Virus record (IMG/VR): IMGVR_UViG_3300009154_000103
Location: 1 to 40,863 of that record
Reading direction: 5' to 3' (one strand)
Source: a virus
DNA: 40,863 bases
The notes under the pieces are model-generated. The model was not told the DNA's origin. It ran no database searches and saw only the letters and a list, made by a program, of their open reading frames with translations. Shown piece by piece: positions 23,837 through 40,863 of this stretch (position 1 is its first letter; every line of letters starts with the position of its first letter). The translations under genes and the position numbers were made by a program.

Positions 23837-25380
23837 TATCCTACCTTGCCCCAACTCTTGAGTAACGTATTAACAAATGTTGCAGCCATTTCATTAGCCT
23901 TTGGTGTCTTACGCCATGCAGGATTAGAACGAATGCCTAGAATAAAATCATTATTAGATGCAATCTTGTCGCCACTAAGAGCCTTCTGTACATCATTGTC
24001 ATAGATGTTTACTGAGTTATTAACAAGACCATACTCAGATTCTTTAAGGCGCTGATAGTTAGATGCAATATCAGATACCTTTAAGCCTTGGTCAATATAA
24101 CTAGCAAGGTTTGCAAATTTAATTTTGGCTGCCTGTTTAATGCTATTGGCTTCTTGTGTAATACCAGTGTCCATAGTTGCTGTACTAATACCAGTAGCAA
24201 CTCCACCAGGAAGCAACGCTTTGCGAGCGCGGTTAAGCAAATCAGTATGCGTTAGTTCAATACCATAATCAGCAGCAGTAGACTGCAACTTAGAATAAGT
24301 TTGACCAATAAGACCGCCTGTGCGTTCTAGGTCATCATATGTAGTCTGACTGATACCAGTACTAATAACAGTCTTAGCCTTAGTTTTAGGGTCAGTAACA
24401 GTGGCGCCATTAACAATAAGCCCAAGACGAAGGTCTTGGCGGTCTTGTTCAGACATCTGAGCATAGGCTGTTGTATTAGTTGTACGGTTGCCTAGTGGGT
24501 CAGTTGTACTTACGCTTGTTGATTGACGAGCAAGTTCTTGATTGTGAAGACGTGTCCAGTATTCTTCACGAAGTTTAGCAACTTCATTAACAAGTGTTGG
24601 GTCTCCAACATACTGCTTTACTGTACGGTCAAACTCAGCATATGCGTCAGCCTTAACTGTAAGTCCGCTGCTGCGGTCTGATGCACTAGTAGCCTGTGGT
24701 GTTTGAAGACGTGTTTGTACAAACTGTTCAAACCCATACATCTTTGCAGTGGCTGTACCACCCTTAGCAACTTGTTCTGCTATCTGCTTACCTGTATTGT
24801 AGTTATCTACAGATGCAGCCATCAATGCTTTTTTAATTGCCTGTTGAAAACCAAGGTCTTTGTCGGTCATAGGACCAGCAGTTAAAGAAGTTTTATATGC
24901 AGCAGCATTCGGGTAGTAAGCACGCAATTGCTGTTTGTAATACTCAATGTTTGCACGTGGAAGTGCGCCAAGAATTTTATCTACTTCTGAATCAATATCA
25001 GTTACAGTAAAGCCAGTTTGTGTACCACCCGCATCAAAATGCGGTAGGACTACAAGAGCCTTAGGTTGTGTATTGCTAGCAGTTGGTACCGCAGATACAT
25101 AAGGTTCTGTTTGAACTCCACCTGAACTGCCACCACTATTAAGAACAATAGCGCCATTAGTAAATGCACTGTAGTCTGATTGAATACCTTTAGGGATTTC
25201 AGCAATAGGGTTTGTATTACCTGTTCCTGGAGCCTTTACTGTTGGTGTTGGTTTAGGAGCAGCAGATGCAGATGGTTTTGGGGCAGGTGCAGTTGGTTTA
25301 GGTGTAGGTTGAATAGCATTATTGCCAGCAACGGCTGGACCATATGATGTTGATGGTGCTGGTGTTGGTTTCTTTGCCAT
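23836..25380 (-). CDS. Presumed ejection protein, 514 aa
   Basis: N-terminal Pro/Ala/Lys-rich linker (P-T-P-K-P-T-A-P-A-P-K-P), similar in style to the next gene. Then a helical body with Y-Y-K-Q-Q-L-R-A-Y-Y-P-N-A-A-A-Y and E-Y-W-T-R-L-H-N-Q-E-L-A, and a C-terminal helix set ending L-L-K-S-W-G-K-V. No enzyme motif seen. The repeated Y-Y-P phrase in both small ejection genes suggests they share a domain. TAATG overlaps at both ends. Confidence 0.6.
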   Translation of the reverse strand: MAKKPTPAPSTSYGPAVAGNNAIQPTPKPTAPAPKPSASAAPKPTPTVKAPGTGNTNPIAEIPKGIQSDYSAFTNGAIVLNSGGSSGGVQTEPYVSAVPTASNTQPKALVVLPHFDAGGTQTGFTVTDIDSEVDKILGALPRANIEYYKQQLRAYYPNAAAYKTSLTAGPMTDKDLGFQQAIKKALMAASVDNYNTGKQIAEQVAKGGTATAKMYGFEQFVQTRLQTPQATSASDRSSGLTVKADAYAEFDRTVKQYVGDPTLVNEVAKLREEYWTRLHNQELARQSTSVSTTDPLGNRTTNTTAYAQMSEQDRQDLRLGLIVNGATVTDPKTKAKTVISTGISQTTYDDLERTGGLIGQTYSKLQSTAADYGIELTHTDLLNRARKALLPGGVATGISTATMDTGITQEANSIKQAAKIKFANLASYIDQGLKVSDIASNYQRLKESEYGLVNNSVNIYDNDVQKALSGDKIASNNDFILGIRSNPAWRKTPKANEMAATFVNTLLKSWGKVG

Positions 25381-28300
25381 TATCCCTTACCCATTGCTAA
25401 AGTCGGAGTGGTATATACATCATCAATAAGTGGTTTGATAATGCTTTGGTATGCTTCTACAAGCGGAGCATTACCCGCTGCAAAGTTTTTTAAGTAATCA
25501 AGTCCTTCTTGACGGACTTTATCTACAGTTTCTGCACCATTAAACTGTGAACGCACGTTGGTATCTTCAAGAACCATAAGCATTCTGTTTGTTAACGCTG
25601 TCATCTGTGCCATCTGTAGGCGCTGACCCTTAGGTAACTTGTCAAAGTACTTAGGATTATTAACCATCTGGTCTAAGTGATTAAAACGAGTAATCAATTC
25701 TTGACGTGGAATAACTGGATTAGTACCTAGTTGTAGCGCCAATGCAGGGTTAGCCTGCTTCATTGCAAACTTAATATCACGTGCTTGACGCAGAATCTCT
25801 GCACGGTATGTAGCGCGATTGCGGTCAGGGTTGTTAGGGTCATTAAACAACTCTTGAACTTGTTTATCTACATTGTAGTAGTCATTGCGTGCACGCACAG
25901 TTGCTATGTCAAGAAGATACTTCTTCAATACACCAGCGTTGTCGTTAAACGGATTAGTCTTGCCTGGAATAATGTCTGTTGCTTCTAAATACTTGACTAC
26001 AGATGGGTCATACTTGCCAATGTTAGGAGCAAATACCCATGCTACGTCATTGTAATCTGTAAGCAAATCATTGTTCTTCATGGTCCACAACTTAGTCTCC
26101 TTGGTATAGGAGATGGCTGCCTTAGCAGCCTTGTTGTTAGCACCAACGGTATAAATAAGTTTATCTGGGTTAGATGCTGTAAACATAGATACTGCTGTAC
26201 CAATTGGGTCATCCATGTAGTAGCCATATTTAGAGTTCACATCAATAACAGCACGAAGGATGTCGCTAAACTCTTGACGGAAACTAAGCACGCCAACTCT
26301 ACGCAGTTCATTAGGGAAATCAGCATCATTTGTGCTTAGTGTTGTAGGCACAATAGTGTTAAATCCAACCTTAACTGCAATAAGATTATGTACTGCAATA
26401 CCTAAACGGTCATAGTATTGCTGTGTTTTCTCTGCATTTAACCAATCTTCTGGCTTCATCTTTGTATTACCAGCAGCCTCAATGTTAGCCGCAGCCTGCA
26501 TAAGAGTAGATGCTTGTATAGCAGTCTTATGTTGTGGGTCAAATTGATTCCACAAAGCCATCAAGTCTTGAGGAAAAGATGCACGAATCCAGTTTGTGTT
26601 ATCAGAACCAGGTCCAAGCACAATGTTATCAATGTTATCGGCAATCTTTAAAGTGCCTTCGCTATTAATAGTACGTCCAACAAGGTTAAGTAATGACTGC
26701 GCTGCAAGCGCAGGGATAGCAATAGTTGGTCCAGTAAGTGATGGAACACCAGCAGCATCATTGTATGATGGGTTAAGTAACGATAGTTTCATGCTGAATT
26801 GATTCCACTGTGGCTGCTTAAAGAAGTCCCAGTTACCTTGTGCTATGTTAACTGCAGCCTTAACAGGGTCAGCAAGCGCAGTAAGCGCAGGTGCTACCAT
26901 GTTCCAGATGATGCCATCATTAGGAAGCATTACATACTGATTACCTTTATCATCTGTGTACATAACACCAGAACCAGATGTTGCTTGACTTAGGTGTGCA
27001 GTACGATAGATAACTTTGTCTGGGTGTGCAATAAGATAACGTGTATAACGGCGAACATAGTCTTCAGATGCACGATAGAAACGCCCAACACCACGTAAGT
27101 TCCATGCCATCTGTGAACGTACATTTGGGTTATCAGCGTACTTCAGTAGTTCATCAACAGCATTATGTGTAGCACGGCTATCAAAGAAGAAGTCAGCCTG
27201 CAAACGAGCAGCATCTGGGTCTACATCACGGGCAATAAGGTCTCTAACCATTTGCTCTTCATCAGCAGCCATTTTTGTGCGCTGTTCCATAACTTTAATA
27301 CCAAATGCATCAGCACGGTATAGGTCAGTAATCTGCCTATCCATCATCTTCCATGGAATCTCAGTAAACTTTTGATATGCGCTTTGCGCACTATCAATAA
27401 GACCAGGAAAATCGTATTGAGTCTTTAACATACCTTGAATAGGGTTATCTTTAACCAATACTTCAAAGTCAGCATATGGAGTTTGACGTACATGGTGTGC
27501 TGGAGACATTATGCGTGATTCATACTCACGGCGGAACTTTGCAGTTTGCTCAGTTGTTGGCAATTCTTTGCCAGCATATGCACGCATGTATTCATCTGAC
27601 TTCTCAAATGCTTTGCGGTTTTTAATTTTAACAGCAGCATCATCTAATTGCTTGCGAATGTAGTTAAGCAGCGTATCATTAAATTGTTCTGCTCCACCAT
27701 GGAATACGTTGTACAATTCACCCATGCTCTTGCGTACAATTGCATCTGTAATCTGTGAAGCAGATTTACCTGCTGCACGCAAACCAAATGTCTGCCCAAA
27801 TCGTCCATTAAAACGCTTGATAGATGTAAGTAATTGTTCTTGAGAGATGGTTTTTTCAAACTCAGTACCCTCATTAAACACCTTAGGCTTTACAGCCCAT
27901 GAACCGTCACTAAGTTTAGTCCATCCAATAGTTTCCATTACTTCATCAACGTAAGCAGCACCATCTTCTGCTGTCTTTAGACCGTTGTGCTTAATAAATA
28001 GAGAACCAAAATCAACTACACGACCATATGATGTCTTAAATACGTTTTTACCAAAGTAACGGTAGAAAGCATCAAAGTGTACGGCTGTACGCTCTGAGTT
28101 TGTAAGCATCATCTTTTCATCTGAAAGGAATGTTCCCATATCCTTGCGACCCCAAGACTCAACAGCCTCAGTAAGGGTAGACTTGCCATACATTTCGGCA
28201 GCAATGCTGCCATCAACCATTGTGTTACCAAAAGAACGTGCTATTTGTGATTGCACCATGCCTTCTACAGCATGTGAATTGTTTATAAGATGCGTTGCTA

Positions 28301-30875
28301 GGTATTGTTTTTCTTTTTCAGATAACTTACCTGCATATTTTGCAATAACTCTAGCGGCTAGGCGCTCTTCAAAAGGCGCATTCCAGTATTCATCAGCAGA
28401 AACCAACTGGTTACGTGGAATATACTTGCCATTAGGCAATGTATAACTAACATCAACCATCTGTGGAGCCTGCATAGCGCGGCGTTCTGCTGCAGATACG
28501 TACTCTGCTGGGTTTTTACCAGCCTTAGATAGTAACTTGCTCTTAACAAGACCATAAGTTGCATCACTGCCACGGTATGCTGCAACTGTATTAGCAATTG
28601 CGCTACCCTTACCAGTAAAGAAATCTAAAATAGCACGGGGATGTTGAACCATCAACCCAATTGTGCCTTCGTCAACTGCAGACTTTAAACCTAATTTAGG
28701 GAAAAGAGTTCCAATTGTCCATCCACCCATAATGTTCTTAGCCCAAGATTCATTGGTAAGACCACTGATGCCAAAGTGACGGCGGAACCCTGCATTAAGA
28801 CCAGTGTTGCTGTGTACCCATTCAGAGATAAGGTCAAACTTAGGCATAGAGATGCCTTCAGTTGTATGTAAAATTTGACTTGGACCAGCAGGCAAATCAA
28901 TCATGCCATCTGAAATCAAATGCGCTGGCATTTGTACATCAGCAATTGGACCCATACCCTTAATTGGACCAAAGATTGATTCAAGCCAAGCACGTTGAAC
29001 GTCAAGTCCACGTACAGTTGAAGACAACCCTAGTTTATCTGTATAAAGTTTAAACATTGTAAAGAGCATATTGATACGCTCTTCTGGACTAACACGCAAG
29101 AAACGCTCAGTCAATGCATTAGCACGGAACTTATCTCCAACAAGTACGCGTGAGAAATCACGAAATGCGTTTGCAGATTTTACAACCATGTTGTCTTCTG
29201 TATAAAGCATTACGTTCTCTGGATGCTTAGACATCATCTTGTTATAGAACTGTTGTAAGTTATTACCACTCTTGGTAAGAGACTGTATAACTTCATCTTG
29301 CTTAGGGTCAATAAGTTTAAACTCAGGACGGTTAGCAAAGTAACGGTCAAATGCTTTTGCGTTATCTAGTACTTCTTCTGGAATAGGTTCTTTACCTGCT
29401 GCTATACGGCGGTCTATACCATTAAATATCTGGTCAAATGCTTCTTTAATACCAGTTGTAATCTTACGAGTAGAACGCTCAATTGCTACATGGTTCTCAG
29501 TATAGTAACGTGTGCCTTCAACACGACCAGAAAGAATATGGTTCATGTTTTCGCCTTGTTCAAAGAACTTAACCATTGTAGGTAGGTCAGTAATTGGAAC
29601 TAATTTTTCTTCATCATTAAGAACTTTAGTCTTAGTAAGAAGGTCAAGCACGCCTTCATTGTCATACTTTGTATAATCACGGGCAATTCGCATACGCGCT
29701 AATGCAGCCTCAGCATCATTACCAGCCTCACGTGCTGTACGAAGTGCATTAACTTCAACAGCCAAACCTGCATGCAGTTTAGCAACTGCTGGGTCTGCAA
29801 ACAAATCTGCTACGCGAGTAGCACTGTTGTTTTTACCAGCCTGTGTAAATATCTCAGCAAGTTTTTCTGATTTAGTAATAGCCTTAGAAGAACCGCCAGT
29901 AAGCCACGTTAATGGGTCAGCAACAATTTGATAGGCAAAGTTAATTGTGCCAGATGGAGAAACAAACTTTTCTTTTGAAAAAGGATTAGGGTTAGCAATA
30001 ACCCATTTATCTTTTTCTTTAGATTCTTTATATGCTTCTGGTAATTTAACAAGAGTTCCACCCATGCTGCCAAGCGTTGCTTGTTCACCAAGCATAAACC
30101 ATGACCATGGACCACCTTCTGAAGGTGGATGGTTACGGTTCATCCAGTTTGTAAAATCATTTCCTGGGTTAATCTGTGCAGCCTTGTACTCACCAAACAT
30201 GTTTTTCCATGTTGATTCATTTGCTGACATTTGACGTACAGCATCAACCATTGCAGTATCTAGTTGACCGTACTCACGAATAATATCTCCAGGCTTTTTA
30301 CCATCAATAAGTCCGCGTACTAAAAAGTCTTGTGCCTTGCCATACTTCTGTGACAGTGCAGCAGTAGCACCAGTGTCCCACTGGTTATGTCCATCCCATG
30401 CATCTGACCAAGTTTTTTTGGAAAGAAGTTCTTTAAGAGCCTGTCCGCTGCCTTCTCCACCAGTATCAATAACATTTCTTGCAACTTTGTACGGTGTATT
30501 AAAAGCCTTACCCCAAGTTTGTCCCGCTTTAAAAACCATACGAAATGGGTCAGTAATACCAGCAAGTACAGCACCACCAATCATGCCAAGCACTGATGGT
30601 GGTGCAATCTGATACTGAGCACCTTCATTAATAAACTTTAAACCCTGTTTAATTTCAGGGTCTAATTTATCAAAAGCCTTGTATGCCTGAGTCTTGTCAG
30701 TAATGCGCGTAAGTTCACGGTCTTTATTTAGAAGACGTTGAATGTTTTCCTGAATAGCACGTTCTTCTTGCGTTGGTTGTCCCGCAAGGGAGGCAGCATA
30801 CAGCGTTGGGTTTTGTGTTGCTAGTATGTTGTTAGTCGGCTGCTGAAATGGTTGATTAGGATTTATCAGAGACAT
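25380..30875 (-). CDS. Giant internal virion/ejection protein, 1831 aa
   Basis: The largest gene, 13 % of the genome. Mostly helical with clustered charge; N-terminus Q-Q-P-T-N-N-I-L, then an apolar stretch G-M-I-G-G-A-V-L-A-G-I (about 95-105) that could insert in a membrane. Central motifs include D-F-F-F-D-S-R-A-T-H-N-A-V and W-N-L-R-G-V-G-R-F-Y-R-A-S-E-D-Y. No lysozyme or polymerase signature found by eye. Size and place between portal and scaffold match the long core proteins (T7 gp16-like) that enter the host with DNA. Confidence 0.65.
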   Translation of the reverse strand: MSLINPNQPFQQPTNNILATQNPTLYAASLAGQPTQEERAIQENIQRLLNKDRELTRITDKTQAYKAFDKLDPEIKQGLKFINEGAQYQIAPPSVLGMIGGAVLAGITDPFRMVFKAGQTWGKAFNTPYKVARNVIDTGGEGSGQALKELLSKKTWSDAWDGHNQWDTGATAALSQKYGKAQDFLVRGLIDGKKPGDIIREYGQLDTAMVDAVRQMSANESTWKNMFGEYKAAQINPGNDFTNWMNRNHPPSEGGPWSWFMLGEQATLGSMGGTLVKLPEAYKESKEKDKWVIANPNPFSKEKFVSPSGTINFAYQIVADPLTWLTGGSSKAITKSEKLAEIFTQAGKNNSATRVADLFADPAVAKLHAGLAVEVNALRTAREAGNDAEAALARMRIARDYTKYDNEGVLDLLTKTKVLNDEEKLVPITDLPTMVKFFEQGENMNHILSGRVEGTRYYTENHVAIERSTRKITTGIKEAFDQIFNGIDRRIAAGKEPIPEEVLDNAKAFDRYFANRPEFKLIDPKQDEVIQSLTKSGNNLQQFYNKMMSKHPENVMLYTEDNMVVKSANAFRDFSRVLVGDKFRANALTERFLRVSPEERINMLFTMFKLYTDKLGLSSTVRGLDVQRAWLESIFGPIKGMGPIADVQMPAHLISDGMIDLPAGPSQILHTTEGISMPKFDLISEWVHSNTGLNAGFRRHFGISGLTNESWAKNIMGGWTIGTLFPKLGLKSAVDEGTIGLMVQHPRAILDFFTGKGSAIANTVAAYRGSDATYGLVKSKLLSKAGKNPAEYVSAAERRAMQAPQMVDVSYTLPNGKYIPRNQLVSADEYWNAPFEERLAARVIAKYAGKLSEKEKQYLATHLINNSHAVEGMVQSQIARSFGNTMVDGSIAAEMYGKSTLTEAVESWGRKDMGTFLSDEKMMLTNSERTAVHFDAFYRYFGKNVFKTSYGRVVDFGSLFIKHNGLKTAEDGAAYVDEVMETIGWTKLSDGSWAVKPKVFNEGTEFEKTISQEQLLTSIKRFNGRFGQTFGLRAAGKSASQITDAIVRKSMGELYNVFHGGAEQFNDTLLNYIRKQLDDAAVKIKNRKAFEKSDEYMRAYAGKELPTTEQTAKFRREYESRIMSPAHHVRQTPYADFEVLVKDNPIQGMLKTQYDFPGLIDSAQSAYQKFTEIPWKMMDRQITDLYRADAFGIKVMEQRTKMAADEEQMVRDLIARDVDPDAARLQADFFFDSRATHNAVDELLKYADNPNVRSQMAWNLRGVGRFYRASEDYVRRYTRYLIAHPDKVIYRTAHLSQATSGSGVMYTDDKGNQYVMLPNDGIIWNMVAPALTALADPVKAAVNIAQGNWDFFKQPQWNQFSMKLSLLNPSYNDAAGVPSLTGPTIAIPALAAQSLLNLVGRTINSEGTLKIADNIDNIVLGPGSDNTNWIRASFPQDLMALWNQFDPQHKTAIQASTLMQAAANIEAAGNTKMKPEDWLNAEKTQQYYDRLGIAVHNLIAVKVGFNTIVPTTLSTNDADFPNELRRVGVLSFRQEFSDILRAVIDVNSKYGYYMDDPIGTAVSMFTASNPDKLIYTVGANNKAAKAAISYTKETKLWTMKNNDLLTDYNDVAWVFAPNIGKYDPSVVKYLEATDIIPGKTNPFNDNAGVLKKYLLDIATVRARNDYYNVDKQVQELFNDPNNPDRNRATYRAEILRQARDIKFAMKQANPALALQLGTNPVIPRQELITRFNHLDQMVNNPKYFDKLPKGQRLQMAQMTALTNRMLMVLEDTNVRSQFNGAETVDKVRQEGLDYLKNFAAGNAPLVEAYQSIIKPLIDDVYTTPTLAMGKG

Positions 30876-33591: not shown

Positions 33592-35484
33592 CTATCCATA
33601 TTGTTCTTGCCATTGCTCTGCAAAGGCATCATCAAGGTTGACTGCGTATCTATTATCCATTTGTGCTCTAGTAGCCCAACGGTTAGTAAGGTACTGAGAT
33701 GTTCTGCTTGCTTGTTGCATTAGTTCGCGTATGCGAATAACTGCAAACCATAAAGCCATAACGGTATCTGTCTTGCCTCTAGTCTGAGGTTTCCAAGTTA
33801 ATAGTTGCTGAGTTAGAGCCTTTAGTCCTTCGCCACCTTCTGATGAGGGTAGTTCAATGACGTTATTGTTTTGGAACTTTCCATCACGCTCCGTACCAAA
33901 GAGGTTTGACATGGAGGCAACGCCGAAAGATGTGTCCCATTTGTTCTTGCCTGTAAAGTGAGCATCAAGTCGTACGCCGTGGACAGAGAGCCAGTTGCGT
34001 AGTTCGTCATCAAGGGCATAGGCTTTTTGGTGGGCATTAATTTCAACGCGAAACTCTTGCGGCTTATATTTAAGAACCAGTTCTTCAATTGTTGCTCTAA
34101 TCTTTTGTGGTGTTGGCTCCTCCATGTTGATAGAGTCCAACACATAAATCTTTCCATCAGCACGGTTGTAAGAACAAACCACAAATGCTGAGTTACCAGT
34201 CATAGCAGGGTCAAACCCAACTACAGTAAACGCTTCTACTTGTGGTGGGTGTCCCACTGCCCCTGCCCGTAGCGGACCTCTTTTTCGCATCCCGTTGGTG
34301 CTTCCCTGTAAGAGAACTGGTGGGAAGATTGAGTCTTCCATGATGTCTTCTTGTTGGTAGACGAGCGCCCAGGTTGAGGGTGTAACTTCGCTTCTTCGTC
34401 TGTTGAGGGTCTTGCCGTCCCACTTGGGGTAGTAGCCGTTTTCCTGAGGAGTCTCATTATCCCCATCCCACGGGACATCCGACTCTTTCCAAAGCGTAAC
34501 CCAGTCTTCTGGTTTTTCGCTATACTCCAGTACAGCAGGCATACCCATATAAGTAAATGGAGTTTTACCACCAGACCAGTGCTTCGGGTTACGAAGTTCT
34601 TTATATAAATCATTGGCTGCAATTCGTGTCCCTACGACTAGCAATTTACCGTTCTTACCCAAACGAGTAATAACTTCTTTCTGTAACCAGTCCAACTGCT
34701 TTTCCCACTCATGCGCGTTAGCGGTGGTAATACAGTCGTCCAGAATAATCAAGTCTGCGCGAGCGCCGTAAATCTGACCACCCATACCTAGTGCTTGAAT
34801 AGTTGGGTCTTTTTCAGATGAGTTACGCGCATCACCCCCAAGGTAGACTGTATCGGTACGCCAAGTATCTGCGTCCTGTTTCCAGCCGCCTTCTGGACCA
34901 TAAGCGGTCTGCAGTTTAAGCCAGCGTGGGTGGGACAATCGTTGCTTGATAGCGTATACGAACTCGCGTGCCTTAGTGATAGTCTTAGAAACCACAATGA
35001 TGCGGATATTAGGATTGAGGGCAATGCGGTAAGTTGGATAGTTCACCGTTACAACGGTGGACTTAGCGTGCTCAGGTGGCACGTTGATTAGGAGGCGGTT
35101 TCCTTCTCCTGGCTCATATATAATATTCTTGTGTTGCCATGATGGGTCGCGTCCCTCCAGAAGGTCAATCCAGTTCTGGTGGTGAGGGAAGACCGTCTGG
35201 TCAAAAAACATCTTGGAAAAATCCGCAAAGGGGATACTCTCCTTTTGGACACCCAGGGCATCAAAGGATTGTTTACTTCCTTCTTCCTTTGCCTCTTCTA
35301 GTGCCGCCGCAAAAAGTGGGTCTCTAACCATCCATTGTCGGATTGTGTCTGGCTTCTTGCCTATAGCAATCATAGCCGCCTGAGGGGAGACGCCCACCCT
35401 CACCTTATCTAAAACTTCAACCTTAGCCTTTGCCACACCCTTGGAGAGGTGGTGCTCATCCCCTGATTTAAAGCCTGACATCAT
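33592..35484 (-). CDS. Terminase large subunit with N-terminal HTH extension
   Basis: 630 aa. ATPase: Walker A-like V-P-P-E-H-A-K-S-T (135-143), Walker B D-L-I-I-L-D-D (244-250), and a coupling motif L-L-V-V-G-T-R. Nuclease: V-V-G-F-D-P-A-M-T (421-429) with later acidic residues. Residues 28-62 (V-R-V-G-V-S-P-Q-A-A-M then K-K-P-D-T-I-R-Q-W-M) resemble the helix-turn-helix of small terminases, and no separate small subunit is visible nearby, so recognition and motor may be one chain. ATG at 35484 or 35481 after AAGGGG. First gene of the late block. Confidence 0.88.
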   Translation of the reverse strand: MMSGFKSGDEHHLSKGVAKAKVEVLDKVRVGVSPQAAMIAIGKKPDTIRQWMVRDPLFAAALEEAKEEGSKQSFDALGVQKESIPFADFSKMFFDQTVFPHHQNWIDLLEGRDPSWQHKNIIYEPGEGNRLLINVPPEHAKSTVVTVNYPTYRIALNPNIRIIVVSKTITKAREFVYAIKQRLSHPRWLKLQTAYGPEGGWKQDADTWRTDTVYLGGDARNSSEKDPTIQALGMGGQIYGARADLIILDDCITTANAHEWEKQLDWLQKEVITRLGKNGKLLVVGTRIAANDLYKELRNPKHWSGGKTPFTYMGMPAVLEYSEKPEDWVTLWKESDVPWDGDNETPQENGYYPKWDGKTLNRRRSEVTPSTWALVYQQEDIMEDSIFPPVLLQGSTNGMRKRGPLRAGAVGHPPQVEAFTVVGFDPAMTGNSAFVVCSYNRADGKIYVLDSINMEEPTPQKIRATIEELVLKYKPQEFRVEINAHQKAYALDDELRNWLSVHGVRLDAHFTGKNKWDTSFGVASMSNLFGTERDGKFQNNNVIELPSSEGGEGLKALTQQLLTWKPQTRGKTDTVMALWFAVIRIRELMQQASRTSQYLTNRWATRAQMDNRYAVNLDDAFAEQWQEQYG

Positions 35485-35529
35485 TCATCCCCTTGCTGAA
35501 GGCAGACTTGTCCCGCCGTATAGAAGTAT

Positions 35530-35875
35530 ATCTGTACAACAGTCTGTCACAGTATGAGGAAGGCTATAAAAAGACTTCCGAATATATTTTACTGTACATA
35601 TATATTAATCCGTTCAAACTGCTAAAACGAACTATTGGGTTCTAAATAGATATAAAAGTCCTGTTCAGACTGTATCCCCAGTCACTATATACAGAAATAT
35701 TTATAGACAGAGATACCAACAGTATCAGGCAGACAGATTAAAACAGTCTGGGTCAAGCCCAGACATGTTCTAATCTGTACAGACTGTCACTACTGGACGT
35801 AGTCTGCGTAGAGATACTGTCTGTCGGGCTGTCGCCCACTATAGGATTTATGTCAGACTGAAGGGCAGTCTGTTT
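35530..35875. repeat. Repeat-rich AT-rich control region (candidate origin/operators)
   Basis: Gene-free. CAGTCTG occurs at 35540-35546, 35744-35750 and 35866-35872; its reverse complement CAGACTG at 35666-35672, 35780-35786 and 35854-35860. TGTACA palindromes lie at 35533-35538, 35593-35598 and 35776-35781. A longer element, TCTGTACA then CTGTCAC, appears at 35531-35550 and 35774-35790. Perfect hairpins: GTCTGGG/CCCAGAC (35746-35764) and CAGACTG/CAGTCTG (35854-35872). An A/T-rich stretch (about 35570-35700) lies between. Iterons of an origin or operators for the divergent promoters would fit. Confidence 0.55.
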
Positions 35876-35889
35876 AAATCTATTTACTG

Positions 35890-36570
35890 ATGCCGAACAG
35901 GTTCTTCATTCGGCTTCCTATGAACAGCGTCTGCAAGCAGTTCTGTTCAGCCTCGGCGTCTGCATCTCACAATGTCGGGCGTCTGCCCGCATCGCTAAGC
36001 AGGTCCTCGCTACGCTCGGCGTCTGCACGCGTATGCTCAGCAGGTCCCTCATTGTTCGCTAGCAGGTCCTCGGTCCGCTGGCTGGCGGAAGGAAGCCTCA
36101 TTCATAACCAAGCAGTTCTTTGCCGACCTTGCAAGCAAGGAGCAAAGCGTCTGCTGTTCTCTGCATTTGACTATCCCATATCACATGGGAAAGACAAAGC
36201 GTCAGTGGCTAATGTGTATGTTATTCCGCTTAGCCAATACACAGCAGTCGCTCGTCTTTGGGACTCGCGCCTGCCTGTCTAAGCGGGTTGTGTTCGCTCC
36301 AAGCGTTACGGTGCACAGCCCCTCCACGCAATGCGCTCACCTAACACCACACACAGTCGGACGCACGCCACGGCTTTCGCTGGCTATCGCCACTATTGCT
36401 CAAGCCTACACTCGTAGCCTACCTCGCTCTGGCTCGGCTTAACGGCTACTCGCAAGCGTGCTGAACCTTACACCGCGCTGTCAAATCGGCATCAGCCGAT
36501 TGTCGCCCTAGACGTCTGGCTTTTCGCCAGACAGGGCAAGAGTGACAGCGGGATGTCGCGGTATCCCGAC
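35890..36570. ncRNA. GC-rich structured non-coding island (candidate large RNA or DNA structure)
   Basis: About 680 bases without a credible gene, visibly richer in G+C than the genes. It holds many perfect inverted repeats: GCCGAA/TTCGGC (35892-35914), TGAACAG/CTGTTCA (35921-35949), CGGGC/GCCCG (35976-35989), TCCCAT/ATGGGA (36174-36190), TGGCTAA/TTAGCCA (36206-36236), TGTGTAT/ATACACA (36213-36243), CCGCTTAG/CTAAGCGG (36226-36286), GTAGCC/GGCTAC (36414-36449), and a branched 3' domain closed by CGCTGTCA/TGACAGCG (36476-36550). AGCAGGTCC repeats three times (35998, 36039, 36061) and GCGTCTGC five times. RNA class and strand are undecided. Confidence 0.5.
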
Positions 36571-36608
36571 AGTATGTGCTGTTGATTTAACTACTGAAAG
36601 GCTTAAAG

Positions 36609-37010
36609 ATGAACGAAGTAACATACACACAGGAAGACTCACTCACAATCAGCAACGTCTGTCCTGAGTGCATAGCACAAGAGCAACTCTGCACAGAGTG
36701 CGTAGAGTTGGCAGACGCCCGCCTCACTGACTCCGTGTATGAGTCGGCGTCTGAAGGGAACCTTATGTACAAGTCCCAATGGCTTGTAGATACAGAGCCA
36801 AGCGGACACGACTGGACAGATAGAGAAGGTGAGTTCAAACTCCCTATCGTACTACTACAGGACGGCGGTGAACTTGATAACATCTGGTCGCTTGATGACT
36901 ATACACAGTCACAGCGTGAAGTTATATGCCCAAGTTGCCACCTTACTACACCTAAGATGTTCAACCAGTGTCAATCATGCGACACAGTACTAGAACATAA
37001 CGTTCGGTAA
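36609..37010 (+). CDS. Zinc-ribbon protein with four CxxC pairs
   Basis: 133 aa. C-P-E-C (18-21) and C-T-E-C (28-31) near the start, C-P-S-C and C-Q-S-C near the end: two zinc sites flanking an acidic middle with W-L-V-D-T-E-P-S-G-H-D-W. First gene of the rightward block, right after the structured island; GAAAGG precedes the ATG. An early regulator or RNA/DNA-binding role is plausible. No family recognised. Confidence 0.68.
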   Translation: MNEVTYTQEDSLTISNVCPECIAQEQLCTECVELADARLTDSVYESASEGNLMYKSQWLVDTEPSGHDWTDREGEFKLPIVLLQDGGELDNIWSLDDYTQSQREVICPSCHLTTPKMFNQCQSCDTVLEHNVR

Positions 37011-37902: not shown

Positions 37903-38089
37903 GTATCAAATAGAAGTACAACTAGTAGGACATGATGGCAATGCGTTTGCCATTATGAGCAGAGTATCAAACGCACTTAAAGAAGCAGGCGCAAGCAAAG
38001 AAGAACTAGACCAGTACATGAAAGAGTCCATGTCTGGTGACTATGACAATCTAATCCGAGTAGCAACTGAATGGGTAGAGGTAGCATAA
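37895..38089 (+). CDS. Conserved small phage protein (GHDGNAFAI family)
   Basis: 64 aa from ATG 37895 with GGGAGAG upstream. V-Q-L-V-G-H-D-G-N-A-F-A-I-M, then A-L-K-E-A-G-A-S-K-E-E-L-D, then S-G-D-Y-D-N-L and a C-terminal W-V-E-V. The same small family is frequent in phage and plasmid genomes; its function is unknown. Single alpha/beta domain. TAATG overlap with the DUF4192-like gene. Confidence 0.7.
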   Translation: MSKYQIEVQLVGHDGNAFAIMSRVSNALKEAGASKEELDQYMKESMSGDYDNLIRVATEWVEVA

Positions 38090-38586
38090 TGACACTAACA
38101 ATGACAATAAACGACCATCTCGTAGAGTTGGGTTCGCTAGTAGACAATCAAGAACAATCTGTCCAACGTGTAGGCGCAAGACTAGTTGATGAATACTTTG
38201 CATCAAACTCAGCCGAGCAAAGTGATGAAGTACTAGTCAACGTACTGTACTATCTAACAGATATACAAGTACGTGACTATGCATTAGGCTTACTTAATCC
38301 AACAGACCCAGTCCCATTTATAACTGGACTTAACCGTTTAATTGAAGTAGCGCCTACTGATACAGTATATATCAGCGGACCAGCCGCACTACTAGCAGCA
38401 CTGCAATATGAGATGGGTGATACAGCAGATGCATTCCTTACACTAAGCAATGCACAAAACGGTTACTCACTAGCCATGTTGTTGTATCGTGTGTTTAAAG
38501 CAGGCTGGACACCATCAGGGTTTGCTAAGTTGCGTGCTGAACTACACCCTAAGGTAGTAGCAGGTATTTATGGAGAAGAAAAATAA
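38089..38586 (+). CDS. DUF4192-like protein, copy B
   Basis: 165 aa, aligned end to end with copy A (602-1102): both have N-D-x-L-V-E-L-G, V-Q-R-V-G-A-x-L-x-D, Y-Y-L-T-D-I-Q-V-R-D, I-S-G-P-A, G-x-T-A-D-A-F-L-x-L-S-N-A-Q and L-H-P-K-V. Diverged at many non-synonymous places, so the duplication is old or both copies are selected apart. The ATG at 38089 matches the copy A start. Confidence 0.72.
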   Translation: MTLTMTINDHLVELGSLVDNQEQSVQRVGARLVDEYFASNSAEQSDEVLVNVLYYLTDIQVRDYALGLLNPTDPVPFITGLNRLIEVAPTDTVYISGPAALLAALQYEMGDTADAFLTLSNAQNGYSLAMLLYRVFKAGWTPSGFAKLRAELHPKVVAGIYGEEK

Positions 38587-39623: not shown

Positions 39624-40061
39624 ATGCAACAGCGAATAGCAAAGTATATATCCGTAGGCAGTACGATTATGTTATCAGTTGCTTCCCTGATTGGTATCCC
39701 TATCAAGGCTGCTGCACTTAGTATCAAGCAACCAATTGAACCCAAAAAAGAAGTAAGGTTGGTCCAAGTATGGAACAAGTTTACTATCAAAGCATACGCT
39801 AAAGCGTACATCAATGAAACGTACCCTAAATGGGGACGTGGTGAATGGCGAGCATTGCTTAATCTATGGGGCAAAGAGTCAGCATGGAATCACAAAGCAG
39901 ACAACCCTAACTCAACAGCGTATGGTGTGGCACAAGTATTAGGTACAAGTCCTGAGACCCCAGCCCCCCTGCAAGTTGCGAAGGGGCTGGAGTATATCGT
40001 TCACCGATACGACAAGCCTTCAGTAGCATGGGCACATTGGAGGAAATATGGATGGTACTAA
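39624..40061 (+). CDS. Membrane-anchored lysozyme-like protein, copy B
   Basis: 145 aa with AAGGAG five bases before the ATG. One N-terminal hydrophobic helix (10-31) whose core S-L-I-G-I-P-I-K-A is identical in copy A, a charged linker (P-I-E-P-K-K-E-V), then the lysozyme-like domain: W-G-K-E-S-A-W (candidate Glu85), A-D-N-P-N-S-T-A-Y-G-V-A-Q and I-V-H-R-Y-D-K-P-S. Catalytic-region residues are shared with copy A while the linker differs. Likely acts at the outer face of the membrane on peptidoglycan. Confidence 0.76.
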   Translation: MQQRIAKYISVGSTIMLSVASLIGIPIKAAALSIKQPIEPKKEVRLVQVWNKFTIKAYAKAYINETYPKWGRGEWRALLNLWGKESAWNHKADNPNSTAYGVAQVLGTSPETPAPLQVAKGLEYIVHRYDKPSVAWAHWRKYGWY

Positions 40062-40221
40062 ATCATATTATGCTGTAGAGTGTACCGTTACAGCCAACTG
40101 TAAGTCAGATGATGAGGCAATTGCAATGGTTGCAGATGCCTGCAAGTTGTATGGTCTTGAGTTCAAGTGGCATACAACTTGGTTAGATGAACAAGAGAGA
40201 GAAACTAATGCAACTAAGTGA
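40048..40221 (+). CDS. Small protein, paralogue of 436-627
   Basis: 57 aa. M-D-G-T-K-S-Y-Y start shared with the copy A gene, followed by a Cys-containing middle (V-E-C-T-V-T-A-N-C-K) and D-D-E-A-I-A-M, then L-E-F-K-W-H-T-T-W-L. Overlaps the lysozyme-like gene by 14 bases and DUF932 copy B by 14 bases. Conserved gene order with copy A supports it. Confidence 0.65.
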   Translation: MDGTKSYYAVECTVTANCKSDDEAIAMVADACKLYGLEFKWHTTWLDEQERETNATK

Positions 40222-40863
40222 AGCATACCTAAGCAAGTCAGTAGAAAAAACACGCAAGCAAGCGTGGGTACAAGCAGGCACTGCGGTTAACGCAGGGTCT
40301 GCATCAGAAGCAGCACGACAGGCTGGTCTTGACTGGACTGTTGAACTATCAGATATGTTTGTTGAACGCAAAACAATCGTATCTCCATATGAAACTCTAA
40401 CAGATAAGTTAGATGTACCTAAGCGTCAAGCAGTCATCAAGCGTACTGAAGAAAGCGAGTCAGTCATTGGTGTAGTCGGTGACAAGTACAAGATTGTGCA
40501 GAACATGGAAGTGTTCTCAGCCCTTGATACATTGGTTGACTCAGGTGATGCACGCTATACAGCAGCAGGTGAATACAACAATGGCGCTAACATCTGGATG
40601 GTAATGGAATTACCAGTCGGAGTACAAGTAGCCAATGACCCACATGCTGCGTTCTTATTGGTGCAGTCATCACATGATGGTTCATGTGCAGTACGTATTC
40701 GCCCTATTATTGAGCGTTTATTCTGTGCTAATCAAATCAATCGCATCATCAAAGGTAAGCATAAGAACGCTTACACCTATGTTATGAAGCACACTACAAA
40801 CTCTGAGTTATCAGTGCAAGACATTCGCAACATCACTCAATTAACTTATGATTCTATTCAACA
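40208..40863 (+). CDS. DUF932 paralogue B, runs off the right end (truncated family member)
   Basis: 218 codons visible; with bases 1-25 it makes about 226 aa. Residues 20-43 (K-Q-A-W-V-Q-A-G-T-A-V-N-A-G-S-A-S-E) match copy A, residues 44-82 differ, and from about residue 85 on the two proteins differ at only a few places, while the DNA carries dozens of mostly third-base changes. The C-terminal 110 residues of copy A are missing. Selection is clearly holding the protein, so it is likely functional rather than decayed; it might act as a partner or decoy of the full-length copy. Confidence 0.8.
   Translation, partial: MQLSEAYLSKSVEKTRKQAWVQAGTAVNAGSASEAARQAGLDWTVELSDMFVERKTIVSPYETLTDKLDVPKRQAVIKRTEESESVIGVVGDKYKIVQNMEVFSALDTLVDSGDARYTAAGEYNNGANIWMVMELPVGVQVANDPHAAFLLVQSSHDGSCAVRIRPIIERLFCANQINRIIKGKHKNAYTYVMKHTTNSELSVQDIRNITQLTYDSIQ

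Follow-up and report, generated by a model that had tools for sequence, protein, structure and literature searches.

The phage genome analyzed here (the complete 40,863-base virus record, hereafter the window) contains, at the point where its late and early genes part, a stretch of 681 nt (35890–36570) that stands out from the surrounding DNA, and the question is what this island encodes or does. The original prediction regarded it as a candidate large structured RNA, possibly of the GOLLD or ROOL type, possibly new, or possibly acting as DNA. Based on a comparison with related phages, we read the island as a new, modular, and accessory structured phage RNA outside the known Rfam families.

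Genomic setting and relatives

From terL, the late genes extend to the left and include those for the portal and major head proteins; from 36609, the early genes extend to the right and encode a helicase, a primase, an exonuclease, and a RusA-like resolvase, as well as a sigma-factor-like protein (a weak assignment). The gap between terL and the first early gene spans 1,124 nt, of which the island forms the right half (Table 1). The island is therefore indeed placed at a divergence point, with terL (minus strand) on its left and an early gene (plus strand) on its right. Its extent requires an adjustment: the gene-free gap (35485–36608) is wider than claimed, and the left border holds, as it coincides with a sharp exchange edge at about 35885. 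Elsewhere in the window, the contig ends carry the same gene types as variant copies (15–449 versus 39624–40061, 57% identical, and 1102–2124 versus 40187–40861, 82% identical); in the latter pair, the second halves are almost the same. The assembly may have continued past a full turn of a circular genome into the copy of another strain, or the duplication may be real. For the 1831-residue protein encoded at 25380–30875, neither Pfam nor PHROG gave a match at E 0.01; from its size and position, it is presumably the tape measure protein. Two DUF4192 proteins (602–1102 and 38071–38586) occur in this one phage.

At least 592 relatives of TerL occur in viral contigs, and 80 of them were retained for comparison; the gap position is syntenic across a large family of contigs from uncultivated phages. 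A scan for the conserved motif described below gave at least 120 stretches. Among the loci compared, 124 regions are distinct, and 82 of these have gaps with both ends (terL and the early gene). The nearest named TerL proteins are those of OX376640 and OX376641 (62%), which correspond by name to the Planktophila phages E7 and F5 (PMC10202952). The host of the studied phage is likely to lie within ‘Ca. Nanopelagicales’, and the phages of the group probably infect abundant freshwater actinobacteria. Neither the gap of the studied phage (searched in named phages and plasmids) nor those of two relatives (searched in named phages) had a DNA match; when the gaps of OX376640 and OX376641 were compared with the other gaps, the best 20 DNA matches lay nearly all around the conserved motif, with one 24-nt stretch elsewhere. 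A TerL scan of host genomes confirmed no relative, and a 20-base pattern of the three-way junction described below matched one Sphingomonas metagenome-assembled genome, but no junction surrounded the match. Several contigs end within the gap; rather than physical DNA ends, these are taken as points where the assembly broke off in a region that is shared but variable.

Table 1. Features of the terL–early gene gap and its flanking genes
Feature	Position	Strand	Basis
terL, terminase large subunit, first leftward late gene	33592–35484	−	phrog_38, E 5e-73; at least 592 relatives, 80 kept
AT-rich left part of gap, common to many relatives; contains S1, conserved motif, and S2	35485–35884	.	blastn of relatives; 395/400 identical in L086
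Hairpin S1, stem sequence varying among relatives with pairing kept	35558–35579	.	23 distinct hairpins in the interval
Conserved single-copy motif, candidate promoter or operator of the late genes	35605–35632	−	recurrence beside terL starts; one match in the window
Hairpin S2, weak T-run on minus strand	35734–35777	−	possible 3′ end of RNA
Domain E, hairpin array with recurring internal loop, exchangeable module	35885–36204	−	fold; present/absent pair L101/L071
Domain D, branched structure with covariation	36205–36475	−	consensus fold, covariation in six sequences
Compact three-way junction	36476–36550	−	pattern scan, 21-copy alignment, covariation
Junction P1	36476–36483/36543–36550		
Junction P2	36484–36490/36495–36501		
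Junction P3	36505–36509/36533–36537 with 36514–36520/36526–36532		
Right gap end, small hairpins ahead of early gene	36551–36608	.	direct reading; folded as part of the 681-nt fold
First early gene, 133 aa	36609–37010	+	weak zinc-ribbon similarity, below cut-off

Composition and coding capacity

The island is GC-rich (GC fraction, 0.568, versus 0.428 in the whole window), as predicted, and contains an excess of perfect inverted repeats: with loops of 3–30 nt, ten repeats of ≥6 bp and five of ≥7 bp were found, versus means of 3.9 and 0.9, respectively, in 200 dinucleotide shuffles, none of which reached the observed numbers. The predicted size of 6–8 bp is slightly generous, because no repeat of ≥8 bp exists in 35890–36570 under this loop limit, and the excess stands for repeats of 6–7 bp.

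The description of the island as gene-free is borne out. The longest open reading frame (130 residues; 35890–36282, plus strand) had no PHROG match at E 0.01, and the longest frames (≥60 residues) of the 82 gaps share no conserved frame, cargo genes apart, so that a conserved protein frame in homologs, which would have spoken for a coding island, was sought and not found in this set. Matches between the frames of different gaps comprised near-identical pairs, a set of three short frames on the minus strand (L153, L154, and L163), a 16-residue match (L151 and L209), and one real cargo family, which is present in five long gaps.

Conserved elements in the left part of the gap

The interval of S1 holds, among the relatives, 23 distinct hairpins (a few of which are not S1) with 173 Watson–Crick pairs, one G·T, and no A·C; unusually free of wobble, S1 could act as a DNA-level element. 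No other non-coding motif is as widespread in the family as the conserved motif, which can also be recognized in OX376640 and OX376641. Among the matches listed, which include repeat counts of some contigs, 177 of its 183 occurrences lie beside a terL start, and the other six are no more than 400 nt from the end of a contig. Several relatives possess an extra hairpin immediately beside the motif.

The number of terminators in the window was at the level expected by chance, and the closest approach to a strong leftward terminator was a hairpin followed by TGTTT in 21 of 125 regions; the sequence TGTTT(T)AAT occurs on the minus strand in 50 of the 125 regions and on the plus strand in eight. The promoter search located no site: across 50 gaps, no position stood out clearly, and matches in the window were at chance level.

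Three-way junction and domains D, E, and C

At the right end of the island, a compact three-way junction was identified, and it was found in 32 of 35 pattern-matching stretches, representing 21 distinct copies; the other three (L087, L097, and L103) were dropped by eye as chance matches. In the 21 copies, both sides have changed in 9 of 26 pairs, and the cells with such double-sided changes number 47 versus 14.7 in shuffles (0/500 reaching the observed value, with shuffles that take no account of relatedness). Shifting the partner strand lowered the pairing from 98% to 29–39%. The number of pair types is not in excess (reached by 325/500 shuffles). Immediately beyond the modeled P1, the outer P1 also changes on both arms, reading TAATGC/GCATTA, GTATCGC/GCGATAC, ATACTC/GAGTAT, or AATCGC/GCGATT. 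The junction varies almost wholly between Watson–Crick pairs, with hardly any wobble of either sense; the commonest, TG at the end of P1 (columns 20/97) in 6 of the 21 copies, is of plus sense. Across the 124 regions, the compact form is all-or-none, being present in 17, with five more having sequence suggestive of a larger form and neither form occurring in 61 complete and 41 truncated regions. A covariance model run on 160 sources returned the studied sequence and two further weak matches.

Domain D, adjoining the junction, was aligned in six sequences (alignment A2, leaving out L068) and shows double-sided changes in 11 of 77 pairs (0/500 shuffles, relatedness uncorrected), with no excess of pair types (93/500 shuffles reaching the observed number). 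In module C, found in relatives and aligned in 9 of 17 sequences (alignment A3, omitting divergent or shorter ones), 6 of 27 pairs changed on both sides (14/500 shuffles reaching that number), cells and score were unmatched in shuffles (0/500, relatedness uncorrected), and pair types were again not in excess (499/500); one of its helices keeps a G·A mismatch on the minus strand, which is A·G in L086. The covariation across relatives that the original prediction asked for is thus present, as double-sided changes beyond shuffles in the junction, domain D, and module C, and it is also upheld by slide controls. Domain E gave a strong fold in five sequences but only two covarying pairs, and its proposed structure rests on energy and a repeated internal loop. 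On the minus strand of 35899–36160, GCAG-ACG-C repeatedly faces G-A(A/C)-CUGC, forming a recurring asymmetric internal loop; here the studied phage is longer by ~41 nt, a duplicated unit, than four relatives.

Folding strength

The 681-nt island folds with z-scores of −3.9 (plus) and −4.2 (minus) (20 shuffles each), and the folding signal is uneven along it. Among 119 segments of 340 nt on both strands, the lowest z-score (−8.2, from 14 shuffles and hence noisy) belongs to the minus strand of 36471–36810, whose right 200 nt lie inside the early gene; the fold of 35791–36130 is modest (−2.4/−3.4), and 36131–36470 is outside the 14 lowest segments. From the 82 gaps, those of ≥1350 nt and near-duplicates were dropped, leaving 47 for fold tests and 50 for the wobble tests described below. 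The 47 non-redundant gaps have mean z-scores of −5.46 (plus) and −6.50 (minus), versus −0.65 and −0.57, respectively, for coding controls from terL of the same phages (45 pieces, 30 of them folded). Distinct strong hairpins in the 50 gaps number 213, versus 57 in shuffles and 31 in terL of about equal length.

Strand preference

Mismatches in the hairpins of the 50 gaps are biased toward one strand, with 108 being G·U on the minus strand versus 55 on the plus strand; minus-sense G·U is in the majority in 29 gaps and in the minority in 13. A stricter hairpin score gave 80 versus 38 (24 versus 8 gaps). The corresponding ratio in eight dinucleotide shuffles was 0.82–1.5 (0.56–1.33 with the stricter score), and terL showed no minus-sense excess (17 versus 28). 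An rRNA control lacked the asymmetry expected of it, as few of its hairpins were eligible. Initial strand tests over the full set of stems leaned weakly to minus, and hairpins around S2 showed no asymmetry (49 G·T versus 46 A·C). Folding points in the same direction: the minus strand has the lower z-score in 33 and the lower energy in 38 of 47 gaps, and the lower consensus-fold energy in all six alignments, which overlap in content. The difference is clear for domain D (−131 versus −107 kcal/mol, with 18 versus 12 covarying pairs) and slight for the junction (−74.3 versus −71.7) and domain E. Owing to the G-U tolerance and the fold energies, a minus-strand RNA, read toward terL, is favored and likely. 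Altogether, compensatory changes are present and one-strand G-U tolerance holds overall, with the junction and S1 nearly free of wobble and neither strand favored near S2; RNA rather than DNA, on the minus strand, is supported indirectly.

Exchange of the cassette among related phages

In relative L086, whose TerL is 98.4% identical, 395 of 400 bases match up to 35884, followed by 8/40 and 14/40; because identity collapses at this position, the left border of the island is an exchange border. Conversely, L101 shares 35892–36601 at 80% DNA identity, with TerL only 74% and the early protein 29% identical, and in L117 and L116 the right half is 91–94% identical. On their left sides, L101 and L071 agree in 425 of 451 bases; what separates the two is a 278-nt insert, which carries the hairpin array and is flanked by repeated ATAGTTTCAGCC.

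The space available also varies, with <300 nt left for an island in 6 of the 82 gaps and >1190 nt present in 12. Related frames are carried by five of these twelve, one being a NADAR protein (Pfam E 2e-25), and a DUF4326 frame lies in the gap of L200; the gene-bearing gaps are those of L147, L218, L204, L178, L157, and L200. The island thus sits at an address that appears to take up variable cargo, which is our main reason for preferring an accessory, trans-acting RNA to an essential cis element.

Comparison with known RNA families

With Rfam 15, no match reached the gathering scores or curated thresholds in the window or in 16 relatives, and none was found at E ≤ 1 in six relatives. Extending the search of the gap to E ≤ 10 gave five matches (E 5.5–9.5), all far below the gathering scores and none of them GOLLD, ROOL, OLE, or HEARO; OLE and HEARO, for which the window, the 16 relatives, and the gap were covered, were rejected on the same grounds. 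No tRNA gene was found in the window, and a single one was present among 40 relative loci, all partial genomes. Because of the missing Rfam match and the near absence of tRNAs, the island is not filed under GOLLD or ROOL, and the suggested membership in these families is not upheld; the structural part of the original prediction stands, through covariation, fold z-scores, wobble asymmetry, and the lack of a conserved frame. A full-text literature search, read at the level of titles and abstract openings and with subscription journals mostly outside its coverage, found no paper describing the island RNA.

Possible functions of the island

Conserved pairing, an excess of hairpins over coding DNA, abrupt exchange, and no conserved frame have been found at this locus. 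We consider it about an even chance (probability, ~0.5) that the island (about 35885–36608, probably with some of the AT-rich stretch) is a large, modular, structured minus-strand RNA, an exchanged accessory cassette that functions in the way of GOLLD and ROOL, and probably trans-acting. The strand on which it would be made is, however, also the strand of terL, and the gap lies directly upstream of that gene (177 of the 183 motif sites listed), with no strong terminator between the two. A cis-acting 5′ leader of the late mRNA, acting on RNA polymerase or translation over ~25 kb of late genes in the manner of HK022 put, would by analogy explain these features, but the conserved motif, a possible late promoter, sits between the island and terL, little room is left for an island in 6 of 82 gaps, and phages with 98% identical TerL have wholly different modules; we regard such a leader as unlikely, though it is the leading rival. 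The plus-strand counterpart, a 5′ leader of the early operon regulating the gene at 36609, draws on the end of the junction ~60 nt ahead of that gene, and is very improbable, as wobble and energies favor the opposite strand and the type of island is not inherited together with the early gene (island 80% and early protein 29% identical in L101).

Hairpins or cruciforms might also operate in the DNA itself, as a replication origin or a packaging or recombination site. The wobble-poor covariation of the junction and S1 would suit such a role, as would the position between early and late genes next to terL and the fact that TerL of Streptomyces Beephvirinae begins 624–679 bases from the record start. 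The option that the island acts as DNA, left open by the original prediction, is nevertheless weakened by the strand asymmetry in wobble and folding, by the small or absent island in 6 of 82 gaps, and by near-identical phages with whole modules replaced; it is still a rival, albeit a rather improbable one.

According to the preferred reading of an accessory RNA, the island would be a candidate RNA gene on the minus strand, presumably transcribed toward terL, with putative ends of which the 3′ end is perhaps formed by hairpin S2. Related phages would exchange the cassette by recombination at a fixed address, and the RNA may act in trans during infection, for example against host defense or in host takeover. 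More tentatively, and with some doubt, it is conceivable that the island represents a new class of large phage RNA, exchangeable at one address beside the terminase, in which whole domains are swapped around conserved junctions like anti-defense genes, so that the RNA itself would serve as a weapon in an arms race or as a scaffold that changes, possibly in an RNA-only assembly.

To our knowledge, few large ornate phage RNAs have been described, and their functions are open. If correct, the present reading would add an RNA family outside Rfam, in phages probably infecting abundant freshwater actinobacteria, and would imply that the modular cargo that phages trade, such as anti-defense genes, can also consist of non-coding RNA. 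The locus also provides a natural experiment, in that phages that are almost the same to the left of the cassette differ in the cassette itself and others have little or none; its function is therefore testable by comparing natural variants with and without it.

Relation to known phage RNAs

The pRNA of phage phi29 contains a three-way junction and is encoded beside packaging genes, and the island resembles it in both respects; pRNA is, however, much smaller, and the island has no family match. The put antiterminator RNA of HK022 is likewise a structured RNA upstream of an operon and on the same strand as its genes, as the putative island RNA would be, but is far smaller. Two families are described as phage RNAs with unknown functions and often located near tRNA islands (PMC12286853): ROOL, which is large and complex, and GOLLD, which is large (many members >800 nt), elaborate, borne by phages or prophages, and composed of one conserved and one less conserved region. 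Assembly into a homo-oligomeric nanocage is a further characteristic of GOLLD. The island differs from ROOL in having no Rfam match at threshold, in the near absence of tRNAs in 40 loci, and in its setting, and from GOLLD in having neither an Rfam match nor a tRNA island, in its location upstream of terL, and in the exchange of whole modules. The putative island RNA shares with ROOL the character of a large complex phage RNA and with GOLLD the large size, elaborate structure, carriage by phages, and combination of a conserved with a less conserved region.
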